Source: Aureibaculum luteum
GTDB taxonomy: Bacteria; Bacteroidota; Bacteroidia; Flavobacteriales; Flavobacteriaceae
Length of the DNA stretch: 64,000 bases
Direction of reading: 5' to 3'
Assembly: GCF_003449015.1 (NCBI RefSeq)
Contig: NZ_QRGD01000006.1
Location: 1 to 64,000 of the forward strand
Part shown: piece by piece, positions 36,327 through 56,047 of the stretch
Position numbering within the stretch: position 1 is the stretch's first letter
Layout: every line of letters starts with the position of its first letter
Translations under genes and position numbers: made by a program
Notes under the pieces: model-generated
Told to the model about the DNA's origin: nothing
Database searches by the model: none
Seen by the model: the letters and a program-made list of their open reading frames with translations, nothing else

Positions 36327-36371
36327 AATAAGTGTAAAATTTTTTTACACTTATTGTCAAAATATTTTACA
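36327..36371. promoter_or_regulatory. Paired 17-bp dyads upstream of tolC (UAS-A)
   Basis: Two sites, TGTAAAATTTTTTTACA (36333-36349) and TGTCAAAATATTTTACA (36355-36371), start 22 bases apart, which puts them on the same face of the helix. The left one extends to a perfect palindrome with 13-base arms (36327-36355). They lie between the divergent activator and tolC genes, 62 bases before TGGCAC. The same pair with the same distances is found at 55930-55968. Binding by the adjacent NtrC-like regulator is inferred. Confidence 0.75.
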
Positions 36372-36433
36372 AATAAATTACAACACAAATCATAAAAAAT
36401 CATAACACACTGATTTACATTTAAATAAAAACA

Positions 36434-36450
36434 TGGCACAACATTAGTAT
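36434..36450 (+). promoter_or_regulatory. Candidate sigma-54 promoter of tolC
   Basis: TGGCACAACATTAGTAT holds a perfect -24 element (TGGCAC). The -12 element at the right distance is TAGT and not TTGC, sharing only the central G and the leading T. Transcription would begin about 47 bases before the ATG. The twin at 56031 has the same -24 element and a similarly weak -12. Confidence 0.55.
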
Positions 36451-36506
36451 ACCTTTTGGCATCATATAAATAAAAGTAGTTTTCTAAACTTGAATATTAA
36501 TTAAAC

Positions 36507-37865
36507 ATGACCCTTAAAAAACATATATTTTTTTTACTTTTCGTTTTAATAGCCAACACTATTAGTGCACAAAAAACTTGGACATTAGATGAATGCGTAG
36601 CCTATGCCGTTGAGCACAACTTAGCATTGAATAACATTAAATACAACAGTGATTCTAACAAAGAAACGTACAAGCAGTCTATTCGTAATTTACTACCTAA
36701 TTTAATTGGGTCATCAGATTACAACATACGTTATGGACGCTCGGTTAATGGTTTTACCAATGACATTATTAATACCGACTTTTTCTCTAATAATTATTCT
36801 TTAAGCTCTTCAGTAGATATATTTCAAGGGTTTCAAAAACTAAATTCCATAAAAGCTTCTAAATTTCTCTACAAGGCTGCAAAGGAAGATGTATTACAAG
36901 AAAAATATTTATTGGCTTTTAGGGTAATGTCTGCCTTTTATGACATTCGCTTTTATGAAGGATTATTACTTATTTCTGAAGATCAGGTAAAAGTCTCTGA
37001 AACCAATTACAATTTAGTAAAGCGTAAGGTAGAATTAGGTTTAAAGGCTGGTGCTGATTTATACGAAGCAGAATCTGTATTATTAACAGATCAATTGGCG
37101 GCAACACAAAGTAAAAATAGTTTAGAGACTGCCCAATTAAAACTGATTCAAGAAATGAATTTAGAAGGTCAAACATCTATCACTATCAATACAGCATTGG
37201 ACGAAATAACAGCAACAGAAAGCAATTCTCCAGTTACAGACTTAGATACTATTTATAACACAGCAACTAGTTTTATTCCTTTTATTAAGGCTGAAAAGTT
37301 AAGAACAGAGGCTGCTAAAAAAGAAGTTGCTATTGCACGAGGTAACTTATACCCTTCCATATCTTTATTTGCAGGATATGGAACCGGCTATTACGAAACT
37401 AATGTTGATGATACCGACCATATTATTCCATTCAATACTCAATTTAAAGATAATGCTTCGAGGTATGTCGGGATCTCTGTAACTGTTCCTATTTTTAACC
37501 GTTGGTCTGGTCGTTCAAATATAAAACAACAAAAAATTGAACTTCAACGTGCCCATAATAATTTAGATATACAAAAACAAGAATTGTACAAGCTGATTCA
37601 ACAATTAGTACAAGATCAAAAATCATTTACTGTAGAGTCTGAGCAAAGTACTAAAAAAATGAAAGCCCAAGAGTTGACATTTGCCATTGCACAAAAGAAA
37701 TATGAAAAGGGGATGATAAATGCCATAGAATTATATCAAGCGAAAAACTTATATACGACTTCTCAAAATGAAAACTTACAAGTAAAATTACAATTGAAAG
37801 TCACTGAAAAAACGCTTGATTTCTATAAAGGATTACCAGTTTTTGATAGTATTGATAAAAATTAA
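36507..37865 (+). CDS. TolC-family outer-membrane efflux protein
   Basis: A 452-residue outer-membrane channel. A signal peptide (MTLKKHIFFLLFVLIANTISAQ) precedes two repeats of the TolC fold, each starting with a long helix (WTLDECVAYAVEHNLAL and SFIPFIKAEKLRTEAAKKEV) and containing barrel strands (VNGFTNDIINTDFFSNNYSL; SRYVGISVTVPIF). The duct-forming coiled-coil helices are rich in Gln, Lys and Glu (LYKLIQQLVQDQKSFTV). It should form the outer exit of the adaptor-ABC machine encoded next. It is the first gene after the paired regulator sites. Confidence 0.92.
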   Translation: MTLKKHIFFLLFVLIANTISAQKTWTLDECVAYAVEHNLALNNIKYNSDSNKETYKQSIRNLLPNLIGSSDYNIRYGRSVNGFTNDIINTDFFSNNYSLSSSVDIFQGFQKLNSIKASKFLYKAAKEDVLQEKYLLAFRVMSAFYDIRFYEGLLLISEDQVKVSETNYNLVKRKVELGLKAGADLYEAESVLLTDQLAATQSKNSLETAQLKLIQEMNLEGQTSITINTALDEITATESNSPVTDLDTIYNTATSFIPFIKAEKLRTEAAKKEVAIARGNLYPSISLFAGYGTGYYETNVDDTDHIIPFNTQFKDNASRYVGISVTVPIFNRWSGRSNIKQQKIELQRAHNNLDIQKQELYKLIQQLVQDQKSFTVESEQSTKKMKAQELTFAIAQKKYEKGMINAIELYQAKNLYTTSQNENLQVKLQLKVTEKTLDFYKGLPVFDSIDKN

Positions 37866-38106
37866 AAAAGTTATGAGTTCAGAGTTAAAGAAGGTACGAG
37901 GTACGAAGAAAAAAGTTTGAAGTCTTAAGACTGGAGATGGAAATAAAAAAAATTAACGAGTAACGATTGATGATTAACGATTTTTGAATTTAAAAATAAA
38001 ATATAATTGTGAACGATTGGACCTTAAGATGTCCACGTATTGAAATAAAGATTAAGCCAAAAGAAACAAGACTAAAAATTAGAGAAATAACGATTAAACA
38101 ATAATA
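37866..38106. other. 241-base linker with low-complexity repeats
   Basis: Between tolC and the adaptor gene the sequence is built from short near-repeats: GGTACGAGGTACGA, then AACGAGTAACGATTGATGAT and TAACGAT. No open gene, promoter or terminator is convincing. Such repeats are unusual in an operon gap. Confidence 0.55.
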
Positions 38107-39354
38107 ATGGATATAAAACTTGAAAAGAAAAAAGGATTAAGACCAAAGCATTACGGATATATCGCTTTAGGATTACTCATAGCATTTGCAGCATGGAAAC
38201 TGATTTTTAGTAGCTCAATGTCTACTTTTAGAACAGAGAAAGATAAATTATCTATTGCGGAAGTTATGCAAGGTAAATTTGATGACTATATTACTATTAA
38301 TGGTACTGTAGCTCCAATTTCTACGATATATATGGATGCTTATGAAGGTGGCCGTGTAAGTGAAAAATTGATTGAAGAAGGTACCATGGTTAAAAAAGGA
38401 GACATTATTCTGAAGCTAGAAAACATGAACTTATATGAGCAAATTTTAGCAAGTGAAAGTAATATGGCTTTAAAGGAAAATAATTTACGATCTACAAAAT
38501 TAGAATTTGATTCACGTCAAGTAAGTGGTAAAAAATCGTTAGCTACAACGGATTATGACCTTACCAAAACAAAACGAAATTTTGAACAAAACGAAGCCTT
38601 GTACAAAGATGAACTAATATCAAAAGAAGAGTATTTACAAACTAAAGAGAACTATGAACTTGCGATAAAACAACAAAAAATTGTAAAACTACAAACGGAG
38701 CAAGATGATAAAATGCGGATCACTTCATTATCTGGTTTAGATACCGATTTAAAACGTATGCGTAAAACCTTATCTATGGTATATGAACGTCTAGATCATT
38801 TGAATGTACGTGCTCCTGCTGATGGACAACTCGGATTTTTAGATGCTGAAATTGGACAAAATATTGGACAAGGAGAACGTATTGGACAAATAAACGTATT
38901 GACTGATTTTAAAATTGAAGCTACCATTGACGAACACTATATTGATCGTGTAAAACGTGACTTATCAGCTAGTTTAGAACGAAATGGTAAAGAATTTCCA
39001 TTGCGTCTTAGAAAAGTATATCCTGAAGTTAGAAATGGGAAATTTAAGGTAGATCTTGTTTTTACCAACGAAAAACCAGAAACGATTCGTGCAGGTCAAA
39101 CTTATAATATCAAATTGCAATTAGGAGCCTCAAGTGACGCACTTCTCTTACCGAAAGGTAGCTTTTTTCAAAGCACAGGTGGGCAATGGATCTTTGTTGT
39201 AAATGATAACGACGAAGCCATTAAACGTACCATTCGCATAGGAAAACAGAACTCAAAATATTACGAAGTGTTAGAAGGATTAGAACCTGGTGAAAAAGTA
39301 ATCACTTCTAATTATGATAGTTTTGGGGAAGCAGAGCGAATTGTTCTTAAATAG
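38107..39354 (+). CDS. HlyD/MacA-type periplasmic adaptor protein
   Basis: A 415-residue membrane fusion protein. It has an N-terminal membrane anchor (about 17-34), a split lipoyl domain (GGRVSEKLIEEGTMVKKGDIILKL and LNVRAPADGQLGFLDAEIGQNI), a helical hairpin between them (about 105-225) that meets TolC, a beta-barrel domain (TDFKIEATIDEHYIDRV) and a membrane-proximal domain at the end (GEKVITSNYDSFGEAERI). It links the inner-membrane permeases to TolC. It is the only adaptor gene in the run, so all downstream permeases may share it. Confidence 0.9.
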   Translation: MDIKLEKKKGLRPKHYGYIALGLLIAFAAWKLIFSSSMSTFRTEKDKLSIAEVMQGKFDDYITINGTVAPISTIYMDAYEGGRVSEKLIEEGTMVKKGDIILKLENMNLYEQILASESNMALKENNLRSTKLEFDSRQVSGKKSLATTDYDLTKTKRNFEQNEALYKDELISKEEYLQTKENYELAIKQQKIVKLQTEQDDKMRITSLSGLDTDLKRMRKTLSMVYERLDHLNVRAPADGQLGFLDAEIGQNIGQGERIGQINVLTDFKIEATIDEHYIDRVKRDLSASLERNGKEFPLRLRKVYPEVRNGKFKVDLVFTNEKPETIRAGQTYNIKLQLGASSDALLLPKGSFFQSTGGQWIFVVNDNDEAIKRTIRIGKQNSKYYEVLEGLEPGEKVITSNYDSFGEAERIVLK

Positions 39355-39375
39355 AATAGAGAAAATATAAATACA

Positions 39376-41799
39376 ATGCTTAAAAATTATTTAAAAATCG
39401 CGTGGAGAAACCTTGCTAAAAACAAGATGCATTCATTTATAAATATCATCGGGCTTACCATTGGTTTATATGCAAGTATGCTGGTGATAACCGTGGTTAT
39501 TGACGATCTTTCTTATGATATACAATGGAACAAGGCTGATCGGTTGTATCGTGTGCTAACTAAGTTTGATGGTGGTGGTGAAAATGACAAATTCCCACAA
39601 GCAATGACTGCTTTGAATCCTGCAATGAAGGAAAATTTTCCAGAAATTGAAGCGGTTTCAAGTGTTTATATTTCTGATCTTGAATTAAAAAAAGAAAAGA
39701 TATCATCAGAAACTATAAAAGTGACCAGTATTGAAACCGACCCTGAAATATGGAAATTATTCGACTTTAACATTTTATTTGGAACACCGAAAGAGTTTAA
39801 AGAGGGAAAGGATAATTTGGTCATTTCCGAAAGTTTTCAAAAAAAGTATTTCCCTGGAGAAAATCCTGTAGGAAAAATTATCTATCATTTACCTCCTTAT
39901 CGGAATGAGCCAATAGAATATGAAATTACAGGGGTTATCAAAGATATTCCATCAAACACGCACTTAAGAGCCGATGTAATTCTCATAAAACCATCAAGAA
40001 TAGAATCTTTTGATCAGAATTGGCATACTTTTTCATTCTATTATACGATTTTGAAGCCAGGTACTGACGTAAATAAACTTACGACCAAAGTGGACAAATG
40101 GTATGCTGGTCTTGTAAAAGAAGAAAAACCTTCTACATTCGAATTTCAACCTATTAAAGATGTTTATCTACATTCTCAGTTTGCCGATTATCAGCCTGTT
40201 AAAGGGGACTATAGCACTATTTTTATACTAAGTGGAATTGCTCTTTTATTATTGATTATTGCTTGCATCAACTTTATAAACCTTACAACGGCTAGAACAG
40301 TATACCGAATGCGTGAAATTGGGGTTCGAAAAATTTTGGGTGCTGGCAAACGCAATGTGGTTTTCCAATTTTTAACGGAATCTTTACTTTTTTTTATGAT
40401 TTCCACAGTTTTTGGAGTATTATTTTATTTCGGTTCGCTTCCATATATTGAGCGTTTCTTAGGCAATAATTTAACAATAACATTCGTAACCGTAAAATAT
40501 TTATTTGTCATTGTTTTTTTGATCATAGTTGCTATAAGTCTTTTAATTGGTTTATACCCAGCATTTGTCATTTCGGGTTTTAAACCTATATCTGCTTTAA
40601 AAGGAACTCTTGGTTCGGGCAATAAAAGCAGTGGTAATTTTGTGCTTAAAAGTTTAGTAACTGTGCAGTTTTCTATATCTATTGCGGTACTTATCGGATT
40701 GATAATCGTGCAACAACAAGTAAACTTTATAAATACTAGAGATATCGGTTATGATAAGGACAACCTTATCGCTATTGATTTTGTATCTTGGAATGGAAAA
40801 GGAGAAAGTTTTAAAGTTGAATTATTAAAACTACCTTTTGTTAAAAACGTAAGCATCACTGATTGGATTCCAAGCCGTGGTGCTGGATCTATGGGTTTAA
40901 ACATCAAGGATCCAATTAATGAAAATAAGCAAATAGCTATAAATGTTATACAAGGTGATGCCGATTTGCCTACAACATTAAAGCTGCATTTAAAAAAAGG
41001 AAGATTGTTCGATAATTCTTTTCAATCTGATAAAATGTCGTGGGAAGGTTATTCTCTCAATGCTAAAGAAAAAGATTCTGCCAAAGCTCTTCGTTCTTCT
41101 TTAGTTACGGCATATACTGCAAAAATACTCCAAGTTAACGATTTAGATATTGAGTTAAAGGGAACTCAAACTAGCCCGGTAGGATTAATTGATAATTTCC
41201 ATAATGAATCCCTAAAAAACAAATTGAAACCAACCATAATTTTTGCCACTGCACCTTCAAAATATTCAGGTATGTTAATACGTGTAAATCCTAAAAATGA
41301 AAGAGAGACACTATCAGCAATCCACAACGTTTGGAAGCAATTTTTTCCAAATAGAGTATTGGGTATCAATTGGGTGAACGATTTACTTGAACAACAATAC
41401 AGCAAAGAAGCCAAATTTAGAAAATTGTTTGTATTCTTTAGTTTGATAAGTATGTTTCTAGCCTTATTGGGTATTTTTGGATTGATTGAACATGCTGTTG
41501 CAAGAAGAATTAAAGAAGTTGGGATACGAAAAGTACTAGGAGCTTCGATTAGTTCTATCATAATTTTATTTTCAAAAAGCTTCTTAAAACTGGTGGTCTT
41601 GGCGGTATTAATAGCCACCCCTTTTGCCTGGTACGGTGCCAGTACATGGCTTCAGGAATTTGCATATAAAATAGATATAAAGTGGTGGGTTTTCGCCATT
41701 GCAGGAATTATTACAATAACAATTGTGCTTCTAACATTGATTTTTCAGACAACAAAAGCGGCTATTGTAAATCCTGTAAAAAGTTTGCGTAGTGAGTAA
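39376..41799 (+). CDS. MacB/FtsX-type ABC permease 1
   Basis: An 807-residue permease without its own ATPase domain, in the long double-FtsX layout: helix 1 (about 21-42), extracytoplasmic MacB_PCD domain (45-275), helices at about 281-302, 335-356, 380-400 and 425-447, a second extracytoplasmic domain (450-685), then three helices to the end. Cytoplasmic coupling motifs occur twice: REIGVRKILGAG and KEVGIRKVLGAS. It opens MLKNYLKIAWRNLAKNK and ends NPVKSLRSE, as do its paralogues. Mechanotransmission permeases of this type couple ATP use to periplasmic movement and export through TolC. It directly follows the adaptor and precedes the ATPase gene. Confidence 0.9.
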   Translation: MLKNYLKIAWRNLAKNKMHSFINIIGLTIGLYASMLVITVVIDDLSYDIQWNKADRLYRVLTKFDGGGENDKFPQAMTALNPAMKENFPEIEAVSSVYISDLELKKEKISSETIKVTSIETDPEIWKLFDFNILFGTPKEFKEGKDNLVISESFQKKYFPGENPVGKIIYHLPPYRNEPIEYEITGVIKDIPSNTHLRADVILIKPSRIESFDQNWHTFSFYYTILKPGTDVNKLTTKVDKWYAGLVKEEKPSTFEFQPIKDVYLHSQFADYQPVKGDYSTIFILSGIALLLLIIACINFINLTTARTVYRMREIGVRKILGAGKRNVVFQFLTESLLFFMISTVFGVLFYFGSLPYIERFLGNNLTITFVTVKYLFVIVFLIIVAISLLIGLYPAFVISGFKPISALKGTLGSGNKSSGNFVLKSLVTVQFSISIAVLIGLIIVQQQVNFINTRDIGYDKDNLIAIDFVSWNGKGESFKVELLKLPFVKNVSITDWIPSRGAGSMGLNIKDPINENKQIAINVIQGDADLPTTLKLHLKKGRLFDNSFQSDKMSWEGYSLNAKEKDSAKALRSSLVTAYTAKILQVNDLDIELKGTQTSPVGLIDNFHNESLKNKLKPTIIFATAPSKYSGMLIRVNPKNERETLSAIHNVWKQFFPNRVLGINWVNDLLEQQYSKEAKFRKLFVFFSLISMFLALLGIFGLIEHAVARRIKEVGIRKVLGASISSIIILFSKSFLKLVVLAVLIATPFAWYGASTWLQEFAYKIDIKWWVFAIAGIITITIVLLTLIFQTTKAAIVNPVKSLRSE

Positions 41800-41846
41800 A
41801 TAATTATAAATAACAAAAAATACACCCCGCCCTGCTTTGCGGTACA

Positions 41847-41881: not shown

Positions 41882-42577
41882 ATGATAAAAATCCAAAATT
41901 TAAAAAAGAGTTTCAGAACCGAAGAAGTTGAAACATTAGCATTGAATGACGTCAACTTGAACGTAGCTTCTGGAGAATTTGTTGCCATTATGGGACCATC
42001 TGGTTGTGGTAAATCTACCTTGTTAAACATCATTGGTATGCTCGACAACCCTACCGAAGGTAGCTACAAATTCAGCGACCATGAAGTTGGAGGCTTAAAA
42101 GAGCGTCAAAGAACTGAATTACGTAAAGGTAATTTAGGATTCGTTTTTCAAAGTTTTAACTTAATTGATGAACTTACTGTTTATGAAAATGTGGAGTTGC
42201 CTTTAATTTATTTAAAAATGAATAAAAGTGAACGCAAGCAAAAAGTAATGGCCGTGTTAGAACGTATGAAAATAGCACATCGTGAAAAGCATTTTCCACA
42301 ACAACTTTCCGGTGGTCAGCAGCAACGTGTGGCCATTTCAAGAGCGGTAGTTACCAACCCTAAATTGATTCTTGCCGATGAGCCTACAGGTAATTTAGAT
42401 TCTAAAAACGGGATTGAAGTAATGAATTTACTAACGGAATTAAACCAAGAAGGAACTACAATTGTAATGGTAACTCACTCTGACAGAGATTCTCATTATG
42501 CACACCGAATTGTAAATCTTTTTGACGGTCAAATTGTAACAGAAAGTCAGAATAGAGCTATGGAAGCTAGAGTTTAA
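41882..42577 (+). CDS. ABC transporter ATPase, LolD/MacB type
   Basis: A 231-residue ATPase with Walker A GPSGCGKST (38-46), Q-loop FQSFNLIDELTVYENVELP (89-107), signature LSGGQQQR (142-149), Walker B LILADEP (162-168) and switch His199 in VMVTHS. The segment after the Q-loop is that of MacB/LolD/FtsE-type ATPases, which drive FtsX-fold permeases. It is the only ATPase gene in the window and is flanked by permeases 1 and 2, so it must serve several permeases, or other ATPases must be encoded elsewhere. Confidence 0.94.
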   Translation: MIKIQNLKKSFRTEEVETLALNDVNLNVASGEFVAIMGPSGCGKSTLLNIIGMLDNPTEGSYKFSDHEVGGLKERQRTELRKGNLGFVFQSFNLIDELTVYENVELPLIYLKMNKSERKQKVMAVLERMKIAHREKHFPQQLSGGQQQRVAISRAVVTNPKLILADEPTGNLDSKNGIEVMNLLTELNQEGTTIVMVTHSDRDSHYAHRIVNLFDGQIVTESQNRAMEARV

Positions 42578-42627: not shown

Positions 42628-45060
42628 ATGTATAAAAATTATCTAAAAATAGCTTGGCGGAATTTAAAGAAACAACCTTTCTTTACCTTTCTAAATGTCT
42701 TTGGTTTGGCTATTGGGATGACAGGTGCGATTCTTATTTCACTCTTTGTACATGACGAACTGAGTTTCGATAAAATGTTTGCAGATTCCGATCGAATCTA
42801 TCGTATAGATACAGATATAAAATTTGGCGGGGCCGAAATGGAGTCCGCACAGGCTGCGGCACCAATGGCCAACGCATTGCAAAATGACTTTGCACAGGTT
42901 AAAAACACGGTTAGATTCAGAACTAAAGGAAGTATGTTGCTTCGAAAAAGTGAAACCAATGACAATTCAAAAGAGCTTCAAACCACATTTGTCGATTCCA
43001 CTTTCTTTGATATGTTTGGTATTCAACTACTTTCGGGTGACAGAAAGACTGCCTTGACTCAGCCTAATACATTAGTTTTAACAAAAACTGCTGCTGAAAA
43101 ACATTTTGGTATAAAAAATGCTATTGGCCAAAACCTCCTGTTGAATAATACCGACACCTATACCATAACTGGAGTTATAGATGATTTACCAACGAATTCT
43201 TTTTTGAAAGATTATTCTGTTTTTATGGCAATGGCAGGTCATGTTGCCTCAAGAGAGAATAATTGGGGCGGTAACAACTTTTATACCTTTATAAAACTGA
43301 TACCGAGTGCAAATGCCGACGATATAAAAATACCTTTAGCAAGCATGCTCGAAAAATATATGCTGCCGTGGGCACAAAAATATTTTCCAGGCATGACTGG
43401 AGAATCGTTTGCCGCAGCGGGCAATTCAATCAGATACCATACTATGCCATTAACGGATATTCATCTGTATTCTGCACGTGAATCTGAGATGAGTTCCAAT
43501 AGTAGTATGCAAAACGTATATATCCTATCATTTATAGGATTGTTCCTTATTATTTTGGCGTGTGTAAACTTTATGAACCTTTCCACTGCTCATTCCTTAA
43601 AAAGAGCCAAAGAAGTAGGCGTAAGAAAAACGTTGGGGTCTAATAAAACAGAACTGATTCAACAATTTTTAATTGAATCTGGACTAATTGCTCTAATATC
43701 GTTATTATTGGCCGTTGCCTTATCTATTACTGTACTCCCTCTTTTTAATGAACTTTCAGGTAGAGCGATTTCATTACCATTTACAAATCCGATTTTCTGG
43801 TTAATACTCTTCGTGGCAACTATTATTCTAGGACTATTTTCAGGAAGCTACCCTGCCTTTTTCATGTCTCGATTGATGCCCGTAAAAACCCTTAAAGGAG
43901 GGAGTCATACCAGCGTTGGAGGAGGAAATATTCGGAATGCTTTGGTTGTATTCCAATTTGCCATTTCCGTTTTTCTAATTGTAAGTACCTTGGTCGTATT
44001 TCAACAACTTAAATTTATACAAAGTAAAGATCTTGGTTTTACCAAAGATCAAGTTTTATTGATCAATGACACGTATGCAGCAGGTAAACAGGTAAAAGCT
44101 TTTAAAGAAGAAGTGGGTCGATTAGGCCAAGTACAAAGTTCTACTTTTAGTAGTTTTTTACCAGTACCTTCATCTCGTTCCAGTAGTTCGTTTTTTGAAG
44201 AAGGAGCCATCGAGCAAGATAAAGCCATTCAAATGGGCACCTGGTATGTGGATGAGGATTATATACCTACCTTAAGTATGAAGCTTATTGCCGGTCGTAA
44301 TTTTGACAAACAGCACCTCACGGATTCAACCGCAGTTATTATTAATGAATCTACTTTAAAAAGATTAGGTGTAAACCCCGAGGCGGCACTTGGGATGCGT
44401 ATCTCAGAAGAAATTGAAATTGAAAAATCCAAATTCTTTACTGTAATAGGTGTCGTTAAAAATTTTCATTTTGAATCTTTAAGAGAAAATATTAATGCTC
44501 TTGGCCTTTTTCTAGACAAATCAACAGGAACTTTAGCCATAAAATTAAAAGCTGGAGATTTTAAACAAACCATTTCAAGCATTGAAAGTATCTGGACTAA
44601 ATTAGCACCAGGTCAACCTTTTAGTTATCGTTTTATGGATGATGCTTTCAATACTAGCTATGATGCTGAACAACGATTAGGTCGAATTTTTATGGTATTT
44701 ACTATATTATCCATCTTTATTGCCTGTCTTGGTCTATTTGGTCTTGCAGCATTTAATGCTCAAAAACGCACAAAAGAAATTGGTATTCGAAAAGTATTAG
44801 GGGCTAGTATTAGTCAAATAACCTATCGCCTTACTACTGACTTTCTAAAAATGGTAGGTCTTGGTATATTAATTTCACTTCCATTGGGCTGGTATACTAT
44901 GAATAAATGGTTAGAAGACTTCTCGTATAGAATAGAAATTAGTTGGTGGATATTGGCATTGGCTGCCTTTTTGGCGATAGCAGTAGCTATACTAACAGTA
45001 AGTTATCAAAGTATAAAAGCCGCAATTACTAATCCCGTAAAAAGTTTAAAAACGGAATAG
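42628..45060 (+). CDS. MacB/FtsX-type ABC permease 2
   Basis: An 810-residue permease. The coupling motifs are KEVGVRKTLGSN and KEIGIRKVLGAS, the helix-2 boundary is ACVNFMNLSTAH and the end is NPVKSLKTE. It starts MYKNYLKIAWRNLKKQ. The two extracytoplasmic domains (about 45-285 and 455-690) are the variable parts and differ clearly from permease 1, for example SSFLPVPSSRSSSSFFEEGA in the second. It lies 50 bases after the ATPase and ends just before a terminator-like hairpin. Confidence 0.9.
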   Translation: MYKNYLKIAWRNLKKQPFFTFLNVFGLAIGMTGAILISLFVHDELSFDKMFADSDRIYRIDTDIKFGGAEMESAQAAAPMANALQNDFAQVKNTVRFRTKGSMLLRKSETNDNSKELQTTFVDSTFFDMFGIQLLSGDRKTALTQPNTLVLTKTAAEKHFGIKNAIGQNLLLNNTDTYTITGVIDDLPTNSFLKDYSVFMAMAGHVASRENNWGGNNFYTFIKLIPSANADDIKIPLASMLEKYMLPWAQKYFPGMTGESFAAAGNSIRYHTMPLTDIHLYSARESEMSSNSSMQNVYILSFIGLFLIILACVNFMNLSTAHSLKRAKEVGVRKTLGSNKTELIQQFLIESGLIALISLLLAVALSITVLPLFNELSGRAISLPFTNPIFWLILFVATIILGLFSGSYPAFFMSRLMPVKTLKGGSHTSVGGGNIRNALVVFQFAISVFLIVSTLVVFQQLKFIQSKDLGFTKDQVLLINDTYAAGKQVKAFKEEVGRLGQVQSSTFSSFLPVPSSRSSSSFFEEGAIEQDKAIQMGTWYVDEDYIPTLSMKLIAGRNFDKQHLTDSTAVIINESTLKRLGVNPEAALGMRISEEIEIEKSKFFTVIGVVKNFHFESLRENINALGLFLDKSTGTLAIKLKAGDFKQTISSIESIWTKLAPGQPFSYRFMDDAFNTSYDAEQRLGRIFMVFTILSIFIACLGLFGLAAFNAQKRTKEIGIRKVLGASISQITYRLTTDFLKMVGLGILISLPLGWYTMNKWLEDFSYRIEISWWILALAAFLAIAVAILTVSYQSIKAAITNPVKSLKTE

Positions 45061-45155: not shown

Positions 45156-45914
45156 ATGAAAAATAAGAATCTTAAAACCATCCTAGTTTTAACCGTTCTA
45201 TTTCTAGGTTTGAGCAATGCAAATGCTCAATCAGAAACAAGAACTGTCAAACCATTTGATAAGATAGTTGTGAGTCCACATATATCAGTAACTTTTATTC
45301 AAGGTGATACTGAAAGTTTACAAATAGAAACCATTTCAGTGGACAAAAATAAACTGAACATTGAAGTCAAAGGCAAAACTTTACGTATTTATTTGGAGGG
45401 AGCGAAAGAAGTTACTGAAAACGAAAAATATTATAAAAACGGCAAAAAACGTACACGTTCGTTGTACAATGGAACGATAGTTACGGCAACTGTTACCTAT
45501 AAACATATTGACGAATTGTCATTACGTGGCGAAGAAAAATTCACATGTATAAGCCCTATTGATCAAAAAGATTTTACCTTAAAAGTTTACGGAGAATCTG
45601 AAATCACAATCAATAAAGTAAATCTAAAAACATTGCAAACAACAATGTACGGAGAAAGTTATATCGTTATCAATGAAGGATCTATTGACCGACAAAAAAT
45701 AACAGGCTATGGTGAAGCAAAAATAAACACCTTAGGTGTCGTAAGCAATAGTACTAAAATTACAGCTTACGGAGAAGGTAGTTACCGAGTGAATGTATCT
45801 AAAGAATTAAAGGTAACCGCATATGGTGAAACCGTTGTAGCCTATAAAGGAAACCCTAATGTAAATAAAGGAATTGTAATTGGTGAAGCTACTATTCAGA
45901 AAATAGCTGAGTAA
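45156..45914 (+). CDS. Exported GIN-domain (DUF2807) protein
   Basis: A 252-residue secreted protein with a signal peptide ending NANAQ. It is of the head-GIN/DUF2807 putative adhesin type, a parallel beta-solenoid. Its repeat is striking: YGE at residues 145, 165, 185, 205 and 223, preceded by RGE at 124, giving coils of about 20 residues (KVYGESEI, TMYGESYI, TGYGEAKI, TAYGEGSY, TAYGETVV). A polar NEKYYKNGKKRTR insert lies at 89-101. It is embedded among permeases and might be a surface component, a cargo or a periplasmic sensor of the system; the last two are guesses. Confidence 0.82.
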   Translation: MKNKNLKTILVLTVLFLGLSNANAQSETRTVKPFDKIVVSPHISVTFIQGDTESLQIETISVDKNKLNIEVKGKTLRIYLEGAKEVTENEKYYKNGKKRTRSLYNGTIVTATVTYKHIDELSLRGEEKFTCISPIDQKDFTLKVYGESEITINKVNLKTLQTTMYGESYIVINEGSIDRQKITGYGEAKINTLGVVSNSTKITAYGEGSYRVNVSKELKVTAYGETVVAYKGNPNVNKGIVIGEATIQKIAE

Positions 45915-48470: not shown

Positions 48471-50900
48471 ATGTTAAAAAACTACATAAAAATAGGTTGG
48501 AGAAACCTTGTAAAAAACAAGCAACAGACCATTATCAACTTGTTGGGTCTTACCTTAGGCACAGTAAGCTGCTTGACCATTTTACTTTATGTTTTTGCCC
48601 AACTTGGCTTTGATGAAGACTTTACGAATGCTGAATCTATTTATCGCGTGGAGACCATAATAGAGAGAGATGGTAAGGAAAGTTTTGACACTGCAGCAGC
48701 TTCTCCACCGATAGCCTTTGCTCTAAAAGAAGATTTTGGCGAAGTTGAAGAAGTTACACGGGTAGTACTAACAGATGTTTTTTATAGTAATTTAATCCGT
48801 GCCGCAGAAAATAAAGAGTCCTATTATGAGCCAAGAAGCTATATGGCCGACTCTACTTTTTTTAAAATATTCGATTTCAAATTTTTACAAGGTGATATTG
48901 AGACCGCTCTAAATGAACCTAACTCGATAGTACTTTCCTCAAATTTGGCCAATAAAATGTTTGGTAATCAAAATAGCATTGGCAAGGCTGTTATTTGGGG
49001 TAGCGGTGAAGATGCTCAAACACTTACAGTGAAAGGCGTATTCGATGAGCATTTTTACAAATCGCATCTCAACCCTAATTACATTGTGAGTATGAGTACG
49101 CCTGGAATGGGTACATTTGTTCAGACTTTTGAAGATTTTGCCACCAATAATTTTGTGTATAGTTATGCAAAACTTGTCCCTAATGCTGACGCTAACCTAT
49201 TACAAAAAAAACTACCTGCTTTTATCGATCGTAGAGGATCTAAAAACTTATCAGATGCAGGAATGGATAATAAACAGTTATTGTTAAAAAAGGTAACCGA
49301 TATTCATTTGTATTCTGAAGGCCGCAAAAATCAAATTGGTAGAATTTCAAATATAACATATCTTTATTTTTTATTGACGTTAGCCTTTTTCATCCAATTG
49401 GTAGCCTGTATTAATTTTATAAACCTCAGTACGGCTAGGGCAAGTAAACGTGCAAAGGAAATTGGGGTACGTAAAGTTGTAGGTGCAGGAAAAAAAGCAT
49501 TAATGCGACAATTTTTAGGAGAATCTCTACTCTTGTCAGTATTTGCAATGCTGATAAGTATTCCTATTACTATTTTCCTATTGCCTTTTGTAAATGAACT
49601 TACTCAAGAAGTATTGACTTATTTAAATATTTTTAATTGGAAAATCACAGCTTTATTGTTCGGTTTAGGGATTTTTACAGGATTAGTAGCTGGTATTTAT
49701 CCGGCAGTAATTTTATCCTCGATAAACCCTATAAAAGCCCTGAAAAGTGCGACTATATTACAATCTGGAAACGGTAACTTCAGAAAAGCATTAGTAGTTT
49801 TTCAGTTTGTGGTCTCTATAAGTCTAGTAGCCACGGTTATAGTAGTAACTCAACAGTTTAGATTTACCCAGAACAAAGACCTTGGTTTTAATAAAGAAAA
49901 TCTATTGGCCTTACGAATAGGTACCAACGAAGCATCAAGTAAGTTTGAATCTATCAAGACTGCATTTTTGAATATACCTGGTGTACTTGAAGTATCCAGC
50001 GGTAATTACACACCGTCCGAAATAGTTTTGTCTGATAACGGTTTATACTTGCCTGGTGGAAGTAGAGAAAAGAATACCATCGTAAAACGAAATGGCGTCA
50101 GTGACGGTTACTTTAAGACAATGGACATTCCAATCTTAGAAGGAAGAGATTTTCGCGAAGCAGATACTACTAATCAGATAATTGTAAATGAGGCCACACT
50201 TAAGGCCTTCAATATAAAACGTGAGGAGGCTCTGAGTTCAAAACTTGTTCAAAGTTTTGGAGATGAAACCTATGAAATGGAAATCATTGGTGTGGTAGCC
50301 GATTTTCATTACGCTTCTTTAAAAGATGAAATAGCTCCATTATTTTTGCACAAAGAAAGCGAACCTAATTGGCTGTTCCTTCGCACTGAAACAAAGAATT
50401 ACGAGCTATTACTTAGCAATTTAGAGAAACAATGGAAAACGACAGTAAACAATGTCCCATTTGATTATAGGTTTGTTGACAAAGAGGTTGAAAAGCTATA
50501 TGATGAAGAAAAACGACTTGGTGAAATTTCGTTTGTCTTCACTATTCTAGCCATTCTAATTAGTTGTTTAGGCCTCTTTGGGTTGATTTCATATGTAGCC
50601 GAACAAAAGAAGAAAGAAATTGGAATTCGCAAAGTGTTAGGTGCTAGTATAAAATCTGTAGTGCAATTATTGACCAAAGATTTTGTAAAATTGGTAGGAA
50701 TCGCCTTTTTGATTGCCTCCCCAATTACTTATTATTTTATGGAACGATGGCTTGAAGATTTTACATATCGAATTGACATCCAATGGTGGGTATTTGCTCT
50801 CGCTGGTGGTTTTGCATTGATCATAACATTAATAACTGTTGGATTTCAATCATTAAAATCGGCCGTAGCCAATCCTGTAAAAAGTTTAAGAACAGAATAA
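48471..50900 (+). CDS. MacB/FtsX-type ABC permease 4
   Basis: An 809-residue permease. The coupling motifs are KEIGVRKVVGAG and KEIGIRKVLGAS, the boundary motif is ACINFINLSTAR and the end is NPVKSLRTE. The first extracytoplasmic domain includes VVLTDVFYSNLIRAAENKES, and the second includes LSDNGLYLPGGSREKNT. The gene opening is nearly identical in bases to those of permeases 3, 5 and 6. The 94-base gap to permease 5 shows no clear hairpin. Confidence 0.9.
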   Translation: MLKNYIKIGWRNLVKNKQQTIINLLGLTLGTVSCLTILLYVFAQLGFDEDFTNAESIYRVETIIERDGKESFDTAAASPPIAFALKEDFGEVEEVTRVVLTDVFYSNLIRAAENKESYYEPRSYMADSTFFKIFDFKFLQGDIETALNEPNSIVLSSNLANKMFGNQNSIGKAVIWGSGEDAQTLTVKGVFDEHFYKSHLNPNYIVSMSTPGMGTFVQTFEDFATNNFVYSYAKLVPNADANLLQKKLPAFIDRRGSKNLSDAGMDNKQLLLKKVTDIHLYSEGRKNQIGRISNITYLYFLLTLAFFIQLVACINFINLSTARASKRAKEIGVRKVVGAGKKALMRQFLGESLLLSVFAMLISIPITIFLLPFVNELTQEVLTYLNIFNWKITALLFGLGIFTGLVAGIYPAVILSSINPIKALKSATILQSGNGNFRKALVVFQFVVSISLVATVIVVTQQFRFTQNKDLGFNKENLLALRIGTNEASSKFESIKTAFLNIPGVLEVSSGNYTPSEIVLSDNGLYLPGGSREKNTIVKRNGVSDGYFKTMDIPILEGRDFREADTTNQIIVNEATLKAFNIKREEALSSKLVQSFGDETYEMEIIGVVADFHYASLKDEIAPLFLHKESEPNWLFLRTETKNYELLLSNLEKQWKTTVNNVPFDYRFVDKEVEKLYDEEKRLGEISFVFTILAILISCLGLFGLISYVAEQKKKEIGIRKVLGASIKSVVQLLTKDFVKLVGIAFLIASPITYYFMERWLEDFTYRIDIQWWVFALAGGFALIITLITVGFQSLKSAVANPVKSLRTE

Positions 50901-50994: not shown

Positions 50995-53385
50995 ATGTTA
51001 AAAAACTACATAAAAATAGGTTGGAGAAATTTGAAAACAAACCGAATGTTTTCAATAATTAATATTTTAGGACTGGCATTAGGTTTATCTATAACCATTC
51101 TACTTTTTCTTTCTATTACCTATGAGCGGAGTTATAATACCATGTATTCTAATAAAGCAAATATATATCGCGTTCTTGTAAATACTAATGAAAGTTATGA
51201 CAAGCAAATTTTATGTACGGCTCCTGCTGCTTTAACTCCAGCCATTAAAAATGACATACCCGATGTTAAATATGCCGCCAGAATATTGAAACATGGTTTT
51301 GGTGAAACAGCATTCGTCAAAGTGGGCAATACTACTTTTCTTGAAAAGGAATTATACTGGTGTGACCCTGAATTATTTGAGATATTTAATATTAAATTCC
51401 TACAAGGAGAAGCTTCTTCTGCCATAACGAGACCAAATACTATTACAATTTCAAAAAGCACTGCCAAAAAATATTTTGGAGATGCTGATCCAATGGGAAA
51501 ACTTATCGTAGTTGATAGCGATGAAAAATTGGAAGTTACTGGCGTGTTTGAAGACTTTCCTGAAAACAGTTCCTTACACTGTAATGCAATAGCTTCTTTT
51601 AGCTCCACATTCGCTTTTAAGAATCCAAGTTGGGGAAATTCTAGTTTTGAAACCTACTTACAATTAAATGAAAACATTTTACAAGCAAATACAGAAAGTC
51701 AATTACAGTCGCTTTTAGATAAGAATGTAGATAAAGAAGGGCAATGGTTTCACTTTACGTTACAGCCCTTAGAAAAAGTTCACCTTTACTCTGCTGACTT
51801 TTCAAATTCTTACAGTAAAAGAGTCGGAGATATTGACGAAATAAACAACCTCTCTTTTTTAGGAATACTCATATTATTGATTGCCTGTGTTAATTACATG
51901 AACTTAATGACGGCAAAGTCTGCAAAAAGATCCAAAGATGTTGGAATTAATAAAACGTTAGGAGCCTCCTTTAAAAGCTTAATAGCTCGGTTTTATGCTG
52001 AAACAGGAATTATAACCTTATTAGCATTAGTAATTGGTGTTTTTATAACTGTAGTATTCATTCCACTTTTTAATCAATTAACGGCTCAACAATTAGAGGT
52101 TTCATTGCTATTTAAGCCGCAAGTCCTAATAGGTATACTATTATTTTGGGTAATTGTCACTTTAGTTGCAGGATCTTACCCCGCATTTTATCTTTCAAGT
52201 ATTTCTCCAAACTCAGCTTTAACCTCAACAAAAAAGGACGGTTCAAGTATTATTAATATTAGAAAAGGTTTGGTGGTATTACAATTTGCAGCCTCTATAA
52301 TTCTAATTGTTGGGGTACTCGTAATATATCAGCAATTACAATTTATGCAAAATCAAAAATTAGGTTTTGATTCAGATAATGTGGTCGCTATTTCTACAAC
52401 AGCAGTTAACGGTAATGACAAAAAAGAAGCTCTAGTTCAAGAATATGAATCGCTGAGCATGGTTTCTAATATTGCCATGGCACAGGGTTTTCCTGGTGTT
52501 ACCGTAAGTGGTAGAATGTTATTTAAAACTGAAAATGATGAAAGTGGTTTAAAAATTCAAACCAATCGTGCAGATGCTCAAATTATCGATTTATTAAAAC
52601 TAAAATTAATAGCAGGTAAAACGTTACCGCTGATAAAACAACAAGGTGATACAATATCAGAAGTGGTTCTCAATAAGAAAGCATTGGATTATTTAGGATA
52701 TACTCCCGAAGAATCGATTGGAAAAAAAGTAATAATCCAAGGTTTTAGAGGTAATGTATCTATTGTAGGTATCGTAGATGATTTTAATTTCGAATCACTG
52801 CATCAACCCATTGGAGCGTATGCTTTTCACAACCGAAAAACTGAAGCCAAAAATTTTGCATTGGTACGCTTCAATAGTAATTCTTTGACCAACACCATGG
52901 ATCAATTAGAATCTAAATTTCTAAAAATAAATCCGGATTCCGCCTTTGAATATATCTTTTTAGATAAAAACATTGAACAATTATATGCACAAGAACGGAA
53001 GACAGCAATATTAGGATTCACTTTTAGCATTTTAGCCATTTTCGTTGCCTGTTTAGGTCTATTTGGTTTAGCGGCGTTCACTGCTGAACAACGCAAAAAG
53101 GAAATTGGAATTCGAAAAGTATTGGGAGCTACTATCATGGGAATTACACAAATGCTCTCTATGGATTTTCTAAAACTGGTTGTAGTAGCCATTGTAATCG
53201 CTTTCCCTATCGCTTATTGGCTGATGCATGAATGGTTACAAAATTTTGCCTATAGAATAGATTTTAGTTGGTATATTTTTGCCATTTCAGGAATTTTGGC
53301 AATTGTAATTGCATTAATAACCGTTAGTTTTCAAGCGGTAAAAGCTGCACTTTCTAATCCCGTTAAAAGTTTAAGAACAGAGTAA
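50995..53385 (+). CDS. MacB/FtsX-type ABC permease 5
   Basis: A 796-residue permease. The first coupling motif is altered (KDVGINKTLGAS, with the Arg of IRK replaced by Asn), while the second is standard (KEIGIRKVLGAT). The boundary motif is ACVNYMNLMTAK and the end is NPVKSLRTE. The first extracytoplasmic domain has a Cys pair (LCTAPAALTP and YWCDPELFE) that could form a disulfide. The last 60 bases are very similar to those of permease 3. Only 14 bases separate it from permease 6. Confidence 0.9.
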   Translation: MLKNYIKIGWRNLKTNRMFSIINILGLALGLSITILLFLSITYERSYNTMYSNKANIYRVLVNTNESYDKQILCTAPAALTPAIKNDIPDVKYAARILKHGFGETAFVKVGNTTFLEKELYWCDPELFEIFNIKFLQGEASSAITRPNTITISKSTAKKYFGDADPMGKLIVVDSDEKLEVTGVFEDFPENSSLHCNAIASFSSTFAFKNPSWGNSSFETYLQLNENILQANTESQLQSLLDKNVDKEGQWFHFTLQPLEKVHLYSADFSNSYSKRVGDIDEINNLSFLGILILLIACVNYMNLMTAKSAKRSKDVGINKTLGASFKSLIARFYAETGIITLLALVIGVFITVVFIPLFNQLTAQQLEVSLLFKPQVLIGILLFWVIVTLVAGSYPAFYLSSISPNSALTSTKKDGSSIINIRKGLVVLQFAASIILIVGVLVIYQQLQFMQNQKLGFDSDNVVAISTTAVNGNDKKEALVQEYESLSMVSNIAMAQGFPGVTVSGRMLFKTENDESGLKIQTNRADAQIIDLLKLKLIAGKTLPLIKQQGDTISEVVLNKKALDYLGYTPEESIGKKVIIQGFRGNVSIVGIVDDFNFESLHQPIGAYAFHNRKTEAKNFALVRFNSNSLTNTMDQLESKFLKINPDSAFEYIFLDKNIEQLYAQERKTAILGFTFSILAIFVACLGLFGLAAFTAEQRKKEIGIRKVLGATIMGITQMLSMDFLKLVVVAIVIAFPIAYWLMHEWLQNFAYRIDFSWYIFAISGILAIVIALITVSFQAVKAALSNPVKSLRTE

Positions 53386-53399
53386 AACCTTTAAATATC

Positions 53400-55814
53400 A
53401 TGTTAAAAAACTACATAAAAATAGCTTGGAGAAATTTGAAAAAGGACAAAACATTTACCCTTTTAAATATTATAGGTTTATCGGTTGCTTTCGGTGTTGC
53501 TATTTTACTTTCAATGGCGGCTTTTTTCGAATTATCGTATGATAAATTTCACACCAATGGTGATAACATTTATAAGGTTTATAATGAGATACAAACTCCT
53601 AGAGGTCCAGAAGCTGGTACAAGTCAACCTGCTCCATTTGCAAATGCTCTTAAAAAAGAAGTTCCAGGCATTTCAAAAGTTACACGTTATCTACAAGATG
53701 GTGCTTTAGTTATTTATAAGGATAAAGAAATTAATATGAGTACCGTATGGGTTGATACTGATTTCTTTACTATGTTTTCTTTTCCTGAGTTTGCAGAAAA
53801 TGCTGATAATCCTCTTAAAGAACTATCAAGTGTCGCACTTTCTAAAAAAATGGCAACAGCATTATTTGGAGATGAAAATGCAATAGACAAGACCATAAAT
53901 ATCCTTATAAATGGAAAAGAAACTCCATTCACAGTGGCTTCGGTTGTTGAAAACACAAAATCGAATAGCTCTCTAGAATTTGGTTTAGCCATTCGTTTTG
54001 AAAACCATCAAAGTTATACTAAGAATAAAGAGGAATGGGATTCTCAATATCACGATGTTTATGTACAATTGCAAAATGAGGTAAATGCACAACAGTTTGA
54101 AGACCGTACCAACCCTTTTGTTGATTTGCACTATAAAGAGTCCGTTGAAAACCTTAAACGAGATGGAGCACAACCTGACGCCAATGGTCGCTATTTTACT
54201 ATTAACCTACTGCCTTTAAAGGACATACATTATACCAACTTTCAAAATGGCTATGCTAAAATAAGTAGAACAATACCCTATTTAGTGCTCAGTGTTGCTT
54301 TTTTAATTCTTTTTATTGCTTGTGTAAATTTTATCAACATGAGCATCGCCAAGAGTACACAACGTTTGCGAGAAATTGGAATGAGAAAAACATTAGGAGC
54401 ACAAAAAAAGCAACTATTTTTTCAGTTTTGGAGCGAAAGCTTAATGCTATTTATTGTATCGTTATTTATTGGTATTGGATTAAGCATTGTCTTTTTAAAG
54501 GATTTTCAAGAAATTTTCCGAACCAATGTTACCTTTAGTATGTTTACCAACCCCGTAAACATTGTTCTATTTATAGTTGTAATAGTACTGGTAACGCTAT
54601 TAGTGGGAGGCTATCCGGCAATACTTATGAGTAAATTAAGTACTATTCAATCCCTTAAAGGCAAAGTGGAAACTAACGGAAAAAATATAGTTAGAAATGT
54701 ACTCATGGTAGTACAATTTTCAATTGCTATTTTATTAATTAGCGGCACATTGGTTTTATGGAGTCAGTTAGAATTTATGAGGAATAAAAACCTTGGCTTC
54801 GATAAATCGCAAGTTGTAGCTTTTCCTATTGAAGGAAAAATGGACAGCCGGAGAGCAGTTAATTTATTACGTGATCAACTTAAAGACAATCCTAATATAA
54901 TAAGCGTCACTGCCTCAGATAATATTTTAGGATTGGGTAAAGACGGCAGTCAATTCAGTAGTCGTTTAGGCTTTGAATATAAAGGAAGAGTTGTAAAAAC
55001 AAATATGCTCGTAGTTGATTATGATTATATAGAAACTTTAGGGTTAGAACTTATACAAGGACGAAGTTTTGATAGGCAATATCCTGGTGATGCACTCGGA
55101 ATGGTAATTAATGAAAGTATGGCTCGCGAACTTGATGAAGAAGATCCATTGAATGCGACCATTATGATGAGTGACAGCACTAAATATCAAGTATTAGGCA
55201 TCGTTAAAGATTATCACTTTGAATCATTAACCAAGTCTATAGAACCGTTAACATTCTTTATGAATACAGATTGGGATCTGTATTATGCCTATGTAAAAGT
55301 TGCTCCAGAAAATTTATCAAAATCTTACGACGCTATTGAACAAACTTGGAAAACGTTAGAGCCCAATGCCAAATTTTTAGGCTCTTTTTTAAATGATAAT
55401 ATTGATCGTACTTTTAGAAGTGAAAAAATTATGGCAACGATGATTACTAGTGGCTCCATTATAGCCATTGTTCTTAGTTGTATTGGTCTATTTGCCATTT
55501 CATTATTGGTGGTCGCACAACGCACTAAAGAAATTGGCGTGCGAAAAGTTGTGGGTGCCAGCATCTCTTCAATAACTTATTTATTGACCAAAGACTTTCT
55601 TAAGTTAGTGGCAATTGCTTTTGTTATTGCTGCACCTGTCGCCTATTGGTTAATGAATCAATGGCTTCAAGATTATGTATATCGAATTGATTTAAGTATT
55701 TGGATTTTTGCCCTTGCGGGATTATTAACAGTATTAATTGCATTATTTACGGTTGGCGTTAAAACTTTAAAAGCAGCAATGCAAAACCCTGTTAAAAGCT
55801 TAAAAACTGAATAA
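53400..55814 (+). CDS. MacB/FtsX-type ABC permease 6
   Basis: An 804-residue permease. The coupling motifs are REIGMRKTLGAQ and KEIGVRKVVGAS, the boundary motif is ACVNFINMSIAK and the end is NPVKSLKTE. The first extracytoplasmic domain is rich in charged residues (NLKRDGAQPDANGRYFTINL). It follows permease 5 by 14 bases, the tightest junction of the array. A 321-base gap with a second regulatory module follows, so it is probably the last gene of the first transcript. Confidence 0.9.
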   Translation: MLKNYIKIAWRNLKKDKTFTLLNIIGLSVAFGVAILLSMAAFFELSYDKFHTNGDNIYKVYNEIQTPRGPEAGTSQPAPFANALKKEVPGISKVTRYLQDGALVIYKDKEINMSTVWVDTDFFTMFSFPEFAENADNPLKELSSVALSKKMATALFGDENAIDKTINILINGKETPFTVASVVENTKSNSSLEFGLAIRFENHQSYTKNKEEWDSQYHDVYVQLQNEVNAQQFEDRTNPFVDLHYKESVENLKRDGAQPDANGRYFTINLLPLKDIHYTNFQNGYAKISRTIPYLVLSVAFLILFIACVNFINMSIAKSTQRLREIGMRKTLGAQKKQLFFQFWSESLMLFIVSLFIGIGLSIVFLKDFQEIFRTNVTFSMFTNPVNIVLFIVVIVLVTLLVGGYPAILMSKLSTIQSLKGKVETNGKNIVRNVLMVVQFSIAILLISGTLVLWSQLEFMRNKNLGFDKSQVVAFPIEGKMDSRRAVNLLRDQLKDNPNIISVTASDNILGLGKDGSQFSSRLGFEYKGRVVKTNMLVVDYDYIETLGLELIQGRSFDRQYPGDALGMVINESMARELDEEDPLNATIMMSDSTKYQVLGIVKDYHFESLTKSIEPLTFFMNTDWDLYYAYVKVAPENLSKSYDAIEQTWKTLEPNAKFLGSFLNDNIDRTFRSEKIMATMITSGSIIAIVLSCIGLFAISLLVVAQRTKEIGVRKVVGASISSITYLLTKDFLKLVAIAFVIAAPVAYWLMNQWLQDYVYRIDLSIWIFALAGLLTVLIALFTVGVKTLKAAMQNPVKSLKTE

Positions 55815-55929
55815 AAAGCGAACAGGTAGCCTAAGGCGTTCTTTAATCAGATGATTGTTTTAAGCAATCTTTACTAAAATTGGATTCTATGTTTTAGTAA
55901 ACGTTTCTATTGAAATATTTCAAAAGAAC

Positions 55930-55968
55930 TGTAAAAATATTGGACACTTTCTGTCAAATTATTTTACA
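55930..55968. promoter_or_regulatory. Paired 17-bp dyads before permease 7 (UAS-B)
   Basis: TGTAAAAATATTGGACA (55930-55946) and TGTCAAATTATTTTACA (55952-55968) start 22 bases apart and match UAS-A at 32 of 39 positions over the whole block. The distance to TGGCAC is 62 bases, exactly as upstream of tolC. The four sites together give TGT(A/C)AAAwTwTTkkACA. Confidence 0.75.
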
Positions 55969-56030
55969 TATTAAAAAAAAATTAAAAATTAATTTCTTAT
56001 AAAAACCTAACAAACAATCGATTAAATATT

Positions 56031-56047
56031 TGGCACAACTATAGGTA
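56031..56047 (+). promoter_or_regulatory. Candidate sigma-54 promoter of permease 7
   Basis: TGGCACAACTATAGGTA shares TGGCACAAC with the tolC promoter. The -12 position reads TAGG. Transcription would start about 79 bases before the ATG at 56136. Confidence 0.55.

Follow-up and report, generated by a model that had tools for sequence, protein, structure and literature searches.

Two promoter modules of the same anatomy, one before tolC and one before permease 7 of a long MacAB/Dar-like export array, were found in a 64,000-nucleotide stretch of Aureibaculum luteum DNA (contig NZ_QRGD01000006.1, positions 1 to 64,000; hereafter the window), and both are probably read by one regulator encoded next door. 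It is very likely that this regulator, a two-component activator of the NtrC type, drives both promoters through sigma-54, probably with the participation of a DNA-bending protein resembling integration host factor (IHF) or HU. The elements of the two modules are listed below.

36333–36349 (+): module 1, dyad a
36355–36371 (+): module 1, dyad b, 22 bp from dyad a
36403–36427 (+): module 1, IHF-like palindrome TAAN5TGATWATCAN5TTA, 11/14 positions
36434–36449 (+): module 1, predicted sigma-54 promoter, -24 TGGCAC, -12 TAG, start expected at about 36460
36457–36461 (+): second TGGCA, 23 bp downstream of the first, over the expected start; conserved in tolC promoters only
55930–55946 (+): module 2, dyad a
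55952–55968 (+): module 2, dyad b
56000–56024 (+): module 2, IHF-like palindrome, 11/14 positions; no perfect IHF consensus
56031–56046 (+): module 2, predicted sigma-54 promoter, -24 TGGCAC, -12 TAG, start expected at about 56057

An earlier note on this DNA, made from the sequence alone, had described the twin layout as two 17-bp dyads starting 22 bp apart and followed by 62 bp. This layout is exact, with TGGCACAAC starting at 36434 and 56031, and the same identity of 32 out of 39 positions between the 39-bp blocks was obtained when it was recomputed. The operator of module 1 reads TGTAAAATTTTTTTACA-N5-TGTCAAAATATTTTACA (36333–36371) and that of module 2 TGTAAAAATATTGGACA-N5-TGTCAAATTATTTTACA (55930–55968); all four dyads fit TGTMAAAWTWTTKKACA with no mismatch, their arms pairing at 7, 6, 5 and 7 of 8 positions. 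When the 39-bp pair was searched in the whole 5.1 Mb genome at up to three mismatches, only the two window sites were detected, and the reversed pattern gave none. The IHF-like palindrome, present in both modules, is a third element that the earlier list did not contain.

NtrC-family response regulators are characterized by paired palindromic sites upstream of the -24/-12 elements. The claim that a sigma-54 activator gene is divergent from the first module was borne out by the domain scan, in which receiver, sigma-54 AAA+ and Fis-type helix-turn-helix (HTH) domains all scored above the Pfam cut-off. This gene (34911–36275, minus strand) is divergent from tolC and adjoins a histidine kinase gene. 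The genome carries rpoN once and two DNABII genes.

Conservation across Flavobacteriaceae

The dyad pair was searched at up to two mismatches in 397 genomes of the family, with the reversed pattern as the control. It was found in 45 of the 397 genomes, and the control in none (0/397). An orthologue of the activator, at least 61% identical, is present in 61 of these genomes (clade A), the next best relatives reaching 52% identity (clade B). Forty-four of the 45 operator-bearing genomes belong to clade A, and a match occurs in 1 of the 336 genomes outside it (Fisher p = 3.3e-43).

Additionally, the stretches beside the activators, mostly of about 20 kb each, were read in 65 clade A genomes, the 61 of the sample and four members of the genus from outside it. 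The module was observed before tolC in 59 of the 65, one of them with tolC unannotated. The remaining six comprise two exact copies of G167 (G060 and G286), G017 with CGGCAT, G096, whose first dyad is degenerate, and G053 and G404, in which the locus is truncated at a contig end. At the named loci, the module was present at up to six mismatches in 75 of 80; the other five are two Zobellia loci that have the operator pair but CGGCA, L353 and L355 with a displaced, imperfect pair, and L323, which is cut. Automated scoring had given 76 of 80, with the CGGCA promoter of L362 (9 mismatches) misread; L332 is also of the CGGCA type. The scan of related genomes proposed in the earlier note thus found the dyads, their 22-bp pairing, the whole-turn spacing and the -24 element kept in nearly all readable loci with an orthologous activator. 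The reading of NtrC-type control offered there gains support, both the dyads and their spacing having proved conserved in relatives.

Modules away from tolC were detected in 26 of the 65 genomes, a lower bound since the arrays were partly read. These comprise 21 genomes (20 with the module before permeases and G218 with it before a DUF2807 gene) and five further ones in which it precedes permeases (G120, G144, G233, G242 and G391). Of 28 permease modules in the 88-module set described below, ten precede a relative of permease 7, some of them with a shorter spacing. At least one module lies on a contig other than the activator's in G120, G135, G144 and G237, and far from the activator in G242 and G391, so that the regulon probably extends beyond one array, as far as draft contigs allow this to be judged.

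These data bear on the idea that the likeness of the two window modules is due to recent copying and that the second has no function. The two do lie in the same genome, on the same strand and 19.6 kb apart, but their spacers, compared without gaps, have little in common beyond the shared elements, the modules away from tolC recur across genomes and before relatives of permease 7, and the second promoter of two clade B genomes (see below) carries a different word. Recent copying is therefore scarcely credible.

Two further sites were observed. One, L403 (G013:C1:1441916), is a module-like site off the array in a genus member, with two operator-like dyads, the palindrome and TGGCACATAATTAG. The other, L387 (G012:C187:7622), consists of the palindrome and TGGCAC, with one mismatch and no visible dyads, and is divergent from a gene weakly similar to the activator.

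Spacing, -24/-12 elements and the palindrome near -45

The distance to the -24 element was assessed freely on the 61 distinct sites of the family scan, which were chosen by their dyads alone. TGGCA was found within 50–66 bp of the dyads in 57 of them, at 52–54 bp in seven and at 61–65 bp in 50, and none of the 57 had it at 50–51, 55–60 or 66 bp. T[ACG]G was present at -15 to -13 in 56 of these 57 sites (counting the T of TGGCA as 1, T12, position 13 and G14 are -15, -14 and -13). Two distance classes one helical turn apart, and no site between them, would fit a looped or bent complex on one face of the DNA.

A larger set of 88 modules (59 before tolC and 29 inner ones) was obtained from 104 raw matches, and was itself selected by both the dyads and TGGCA. 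Duplicates with identical operator and core were dropped, as were matches with a distance above 70 bp, with more than five mismatches, or with no gene or one more than 1000 bp away; four matches at 74–76 bp were further TGGCA strings in promoters already counted, and L161, whose gene is unannotated at a contig end, was kept and counted with tolC. TGGCA lies at 61–65 bp in 76 modules of this set and at 51–54 bp in 12, all 12 before permeases. T is found at -15 in 88/88, G at -13 in 87/88 and C at -12 in 20/88, and position -14 is A in 50, C in 21, G in 16 and T in one. All of the 75 named-locus modules read TAG, TGG or TCG at the -12 element. Set against the canonical TTGC, the spacing, T(-15) and G(-13) fit, and the T of -14 appears in 1/88. 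The strings TAGT and TAGG of the window, in which the earlier note had seen its weak point, are indeed poor matches to TTGC, and this trait is common to the promoters of the family: the non-TTGC -12 element is a constant of this promoter family. The -24 element is TGGCAY at its fixed place in both window sites, and CGGCA in the two Zobellia loci.

In the genus, T[AC]G also stands in this register in the groES promoters of 12 out of 15 loci. Those at L104–L117 read TTGGCAYN2TTTT[AC]G or close to it, and the grpE promoters (genus members among L253–L270) mostly TTGGCAGTACTTTTGC, which indicates that two -12 types coexist in the sigma-54 regulon of the genus. Both groES and grpE of F. psychrophilum have starts in the sigma-54 motif SM4, according to excerpts of PMC9723704. 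A canonical -12 element as a genome-wide rule was also tried: TTGGCAYN5TTGC gave 8 matches (control 2) and TTGGCAYN5TMGC 2 (control 3). As these scans were uninformative, the -12 argument rests on the aligned promoters.

A second TGGC(A) follows exactly 23 bp after the first in 45 of 59 tolC modules, in 0 of 29 inner modules and in 49 of the 75 named-locus modules. Its use as a second -24 element was rejected, since no -12 element lies behind it and the start would fall at or inside the start of tolC. It is overlapped in 23 of the 59 tolC modules by TAnnTTTG (7/59) or TAnnnTTTG (16/59), and an irregular sigma-A -7 box is possible at this point.

That overlap with the conserved TTTGGCA near the start, together with the -12 element lacking TTGC and the FTDA variant of the activator loop (see below), is what speaks for a different view, in which the modules are not sigma-54 promoters, TTGGCA is a -33-like sigma-A element and the dyads form a conventional activator or repressor operator. 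Yet the inner modules have neither string (0/29; in a looser form 2/29 versus 32/59) and keep TGGCA, T(-15) and G(-13) nevertheless, the -24 element and the G of the -12 element keep sigma-54 spacing, and the regulator is a sigma-54 activator by its domains. Moreover, T[AC]G in the same register is found in the groES promoters of the genus, and the F. psychrophilum groES start lies in SM4 in the excerpts of PMC9723704. A sigma-A promoter is thus considered very unlikely.

The 25-bp palindrome TAAN5TGATWATCAN5TTA sits 31 to 7 bp before TGGCA. Its mean score is 10.9/14 in the 59 tolC modules and 11.0/14 in the 29 inner ones, with no more than 6.8 at other offsets within 20 bp, these scores being inflated because the palindrome was defined on the same 88 modules. 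The IHF consensus WATCARNNNNTTR, an outside standard quoted in PMC7962754 and PMC3897727 (both seen as excerpts), is fully matched in the spacer of 43 of the 59 tolC modules and of 14 of the 29 inner ones, and 200 dinucleotide shuffles gave means of 1.4 and 0.5 and maxima of 6 and 3. Within the window the full match is found in module 1 only, in reverse form, and module 2 has no perfect match. In the 12 modules of short spacing the palindrome stands in register with the -24 element (mean 10.3), which indicates that the operator is what moved. Clade B promoters have it in either of two registers, which differ by 10 bp, and 19 of 35 match the IHF consensus in full.

Instead of an IHF/HU-like bender, a further specific regulator might bind at -45. 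In its favor, the palindrome is symmetric, resembling two back-to-back IHF-like halves that share one base, as against the asymmetric IHF consensus, and neither the groES (0/12) nor the grpE promoters (0/18) have a perfect IHF match upstream, as counted at the loci with a recognisable -24 element (12 of 15 groES and 18 of 25 grpE). The halves fit the IHF consensus in the tolC spacers far above the shuffle mean, however, the palindrome is found in the promoters of both activator clades, and its position matches that of the IHF site at -43 of orp2 in Desulfovibrio vulgaris, as given in excerpts on that system (see below). A further regulator is possible but somewhat unlikely, and a bender of the IHF/HU type is preferred here.

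Activator clades and operator words

The recognition helix of the activator is [ST]RQTLYNK in 62 of 62 clade A proteins and TRxALYRR in 23 of 23 clade B proteins. The clade B promoters carry other operator words, for example TGTATCAAAACCGAACA or TGTTCGAAAACGAACA. Forty clade B loci were considered, of which the five lacking a -24-like string were set aside. Among the remaining 35 promoters, a search that was blind to the words detected pairs spaced 21–22 bp apart in 28, compared with 2 to 9 of 35 in ten base shuffles; in the clade A control of this search, 87 of 88 had 22 bp. The distance to the -24 element in clade B is 52–53 bp in 9 of 35 promoters and 60–64 bp in 17 of 35. The arrangement of the sites is preserved in relatives with another recognition helix, and their operator words differ. 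In part of clade B (e.g., L213, L233 and L242), a -12-like string seems to lie one base nearer the -24 element, and the palindrome about 10 bp further upstream.

Two clade B genomes of the same genus, G014 and G015, have a second promoter about 14.3 kb further on, between two permeases. It consists of the pair TGTTCGAATACGAACA / TGTATCAAAACCGAACA, the palindrome and TGGCAT, and the first promoter has TGTATC words. Both promoters have followed the change of the activator, which is the strongest indirect evidence that the regulator reads the sites.

The same observations bear on whether some other transcription factor binds the dyads, the divergent NtrC-type gene being a mere neighbour. Module 1 does lie between divergent genes, where any regulator could act, and binding by the activator is predicted from sequence. 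Against this, 44 of the 45 operator genomes carry a clade A activator, sites far from the regulator gene share the operator word, and clade B, with its TRxALYRR helix, has other words in the same geometry, in G014 and G015 at both promoters. Another factor is thus highly improbable, and the neighbouring activator is retained as the likely reader of the sites.

Regarding the capacity of the regulator to be phosphorylated, D10, D11 and D54 are present in 85 of 85 aligned activators and the partner kinase is adjacent, as expected of a phospho-acceptor domain. The loop that contacts sigma-54 is G[AS]FTD[AS] in 62 of 62 clade A proteins; in clade B it is G[AS]FTDA in 19 of 23 and FTGA in 4 of 23. 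The two other activators of the genome that contains the window have GSFTGA. Excerpts of PMC4641369 list GAFTDA among the tolerated variants that keep activity. A strict link between the FTDA loop and a non-T at -14 was considered and dropped, since groES has T[AC]G despite GSFTGA activators and 4 of the 23 clade B proteins have FTGA. Sigma-54 dependence of the two modules is predicted and considered likely.

The export array, the regulatory model and its relation to known systems

The genes of the regulator pair and of the array were assigned by family and profile scans or, where indicated, by open reading frame (ORF):

33562–34911 (-): histidine kinase of the two-component pair; HATPase_c, two N-terminal hydrophobic segments, H-box LTHEIMNTITP in the translation
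34911–36275 (-): response regulator/sigma-54 activator; Response_reg, Sigma54_activat and HTH_8, L1 loop GSFTDA, recognition helix SRQTLYNKIKK
36507–37865 (+): TolC-type outer membrane channel, first gene of the array; family/profile scan
38107–39354 (+): periplasmic adaptor (HlyD/RND_mfp; DarC-like); family/profile scan
39376–41799 (+): permease 1 (MacB_PCD + FtsX; ADOP/DarB-like); family/profile scan
41882–42577 (+): ABC ATPase (DarD/MacB-like); family/profile scan
42628–45060 (+): permease 2; ORF, labelled from its position and the matching ORFs of relatives, without a family scan of its own
45156–45914 (+): DUF2807 protein within the array; family scan
45999–48353, 48471–50900, 50995–53385 and 53400–55814 (+): permeases 3–6; 3 and 6 by family scan, 4 and 5 by ORF and relatives' matches only
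56136–63549 (+): permeases 7–9, second half of the array; 7 by family scan, 8 and 9 by ORF and relatives' matches

The start of permease 7 is most likely the ATG at 56136, versus the TTG at 56085 given by the ORF tool. Past the end of the window the array continues: a tenth permease follows, as does another ATPase that shares 59% identity with the first. The approximately ten ADOP-like permeases at 39376–63549 (plus L376) share one or two ATPases and the DUF2807 protein. By its activator, the closest named genome is that of Aureibaculum flavum (98% identical).

In the model that we favor, the two-component system (kinase at 33562–34911, regulator at 34911–36275) would act on the neighbouring array through a pair of identically built sigma-54 promoters, which precede tolC and permease 7. 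Regulator dimers, once phosphorylated, would sit on the two dyads, 22 bp or two helical turns apart, and assemble into an AAA+ hexamer, and an IHF/HU-type protein would probably bend the DNA at the palindrome near -45. The bend would let the hexamer touch the RNA polymerase-sigma-54 held at -24/-12, with opening by ATP hydrolysis. The inner promoter would allow a single signal to induce the distal permeases no less strongly than the proximal genes, compensating for the loss of transcription along about 20 kb.

Several observations weigh against this model, in addition to the way in which the 88-module set and its palindrome were defined. The sigma-54-contact loop of the activator is GSFTDA and departs from strict GAFTGA, which PMC12316311 calls invariant in the excerpts available, and Dickeya VfmH, with GAFTDA, pulled down no sigma-54 (PMC10714721). 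Position -14 is almost never T in the modules, in contrast to the grpE promoters of the genus, whose -12 element reads TTG and in most cases TTGC. Four of the 61 sites chosen by dyads lack TGGCA: G017 has CGGCAT, G355 a TGGTAC-like string, and none was recognised in G034 and G241, the latter also being the one operator genome without a clade A activator. At one site of G232, TGGCA is present, but T[ACG]G is lacking and no gene was recognised. The palindrome with TGGCAY at up to three mismatches is non-specific, with 69 matches versus 10 of the control in 17 genomes, most of the 69 without an intact TGGCA. Finally, 39 of the 65 genomes gave no module elsewhere than before tolC, within the parts of their arrays that were read.

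Among known systems, AtoC, ZraR and NtrC1 of the NtrC family have the same order of receiver, AAA+ and Fis HTH domains and a kinase partner. They differ from the present activators, in which the loop is G[AS]FTDA and not GAFTGA, position -14 is not T, and the sites lie about 62 or 52 bp from the -24 element and recur along a single array. Of the NCBIfam matches of the regulator, the 25 best all fall below the cut-offs. Compared with MacAB-TolC, DarBCD and ADOP, the best profile matches in the window are DarD for the ATPase, DarC for the adaptor, and ADOP followed by DarB for the permeases, all scoring under the NCBIfam cut-offs of these models (DarD 293.6 versus 375; DarC 204.7 versus 450; DarB at most 178 versus 700 in the four permeases scanned). 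Unlike MacAB-TolC and DarBCD, the array contains ten or more consecutive permeases and one or two ATPases. PMC10197871 on F. johnsoniae tolC concerns another operon, judging from its excerpts.

The nearest experimentally studied parallel found is DVU2106 of D. vulgaris. In excerpts of PMC4641369 and PMC3897727, this GAFTDA activator has palindromic sites (at -88 in orp2), an IHF site at -43 and two sigma-54 operons; IHF was needed in the E. coli reconstruction, and an ihf-alpha mutant of D. vulgaris had no effect on orp expression (PMC3897727). As far as these excerpts go, it resembles the system proposed for the window in its FTDA-type loop, the palindromic activator sites, the IHF or IHF-like site near -45 and two operons under one activator. 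It differs in that the operons are divergent, concern cell division and include no export array, whereas here a symmetric palindrome is kept in one register across many genera.

Excerpts of PMC12316311 predict sigma-54 control of FtsX-like permeases (COG0577) in Bacteroidia and other classes and claim the first evidence of it, so the link itself is not new. These passages mention neither an operator or activator nor a spacing, an inner promoter or an IHF-like element, and the activator filter described in them requires GAFTGA and would drop this activator family. In open-access full text, no description was found of the operator code, the activator clades, the inner promoters, the fixed palindrome or the pairing of FTDA with a non-T at -14. 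The parts are known individually, and the combination and the operator code are without a published description found in that literature. More tentatively, and with clear doubt, these elements may represent a sigma-54 promoter class private to Flavobacteriaceae and dedicated to ADOP/Dar-like arrays. In it, FTDA-loop activators, the non-T at -14 and the symmetric palindrome of 25 bp at -45, recognised by a homodimer of an IHF/HU-like protein, would form one co-adapted unit, repeated inside the array to re-fire transcription, with the operator word rewritten at all copies when the helix changes.

These results provide a readable operator code and a promoter anatomy for a large Bacteroidota export family, tying each array to a sensor kinase, and suggest why strict filters (TTGC, GAFTGA) would miss this promoter class. 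They also offer a natural data set of many genera, in which genomes have between one and three promoters, the spacings fall into two classes one turn apart and several operator words occur, and which could serve to test the co-evolution of the activator, the bender and the -12 contacts of sigma-54.

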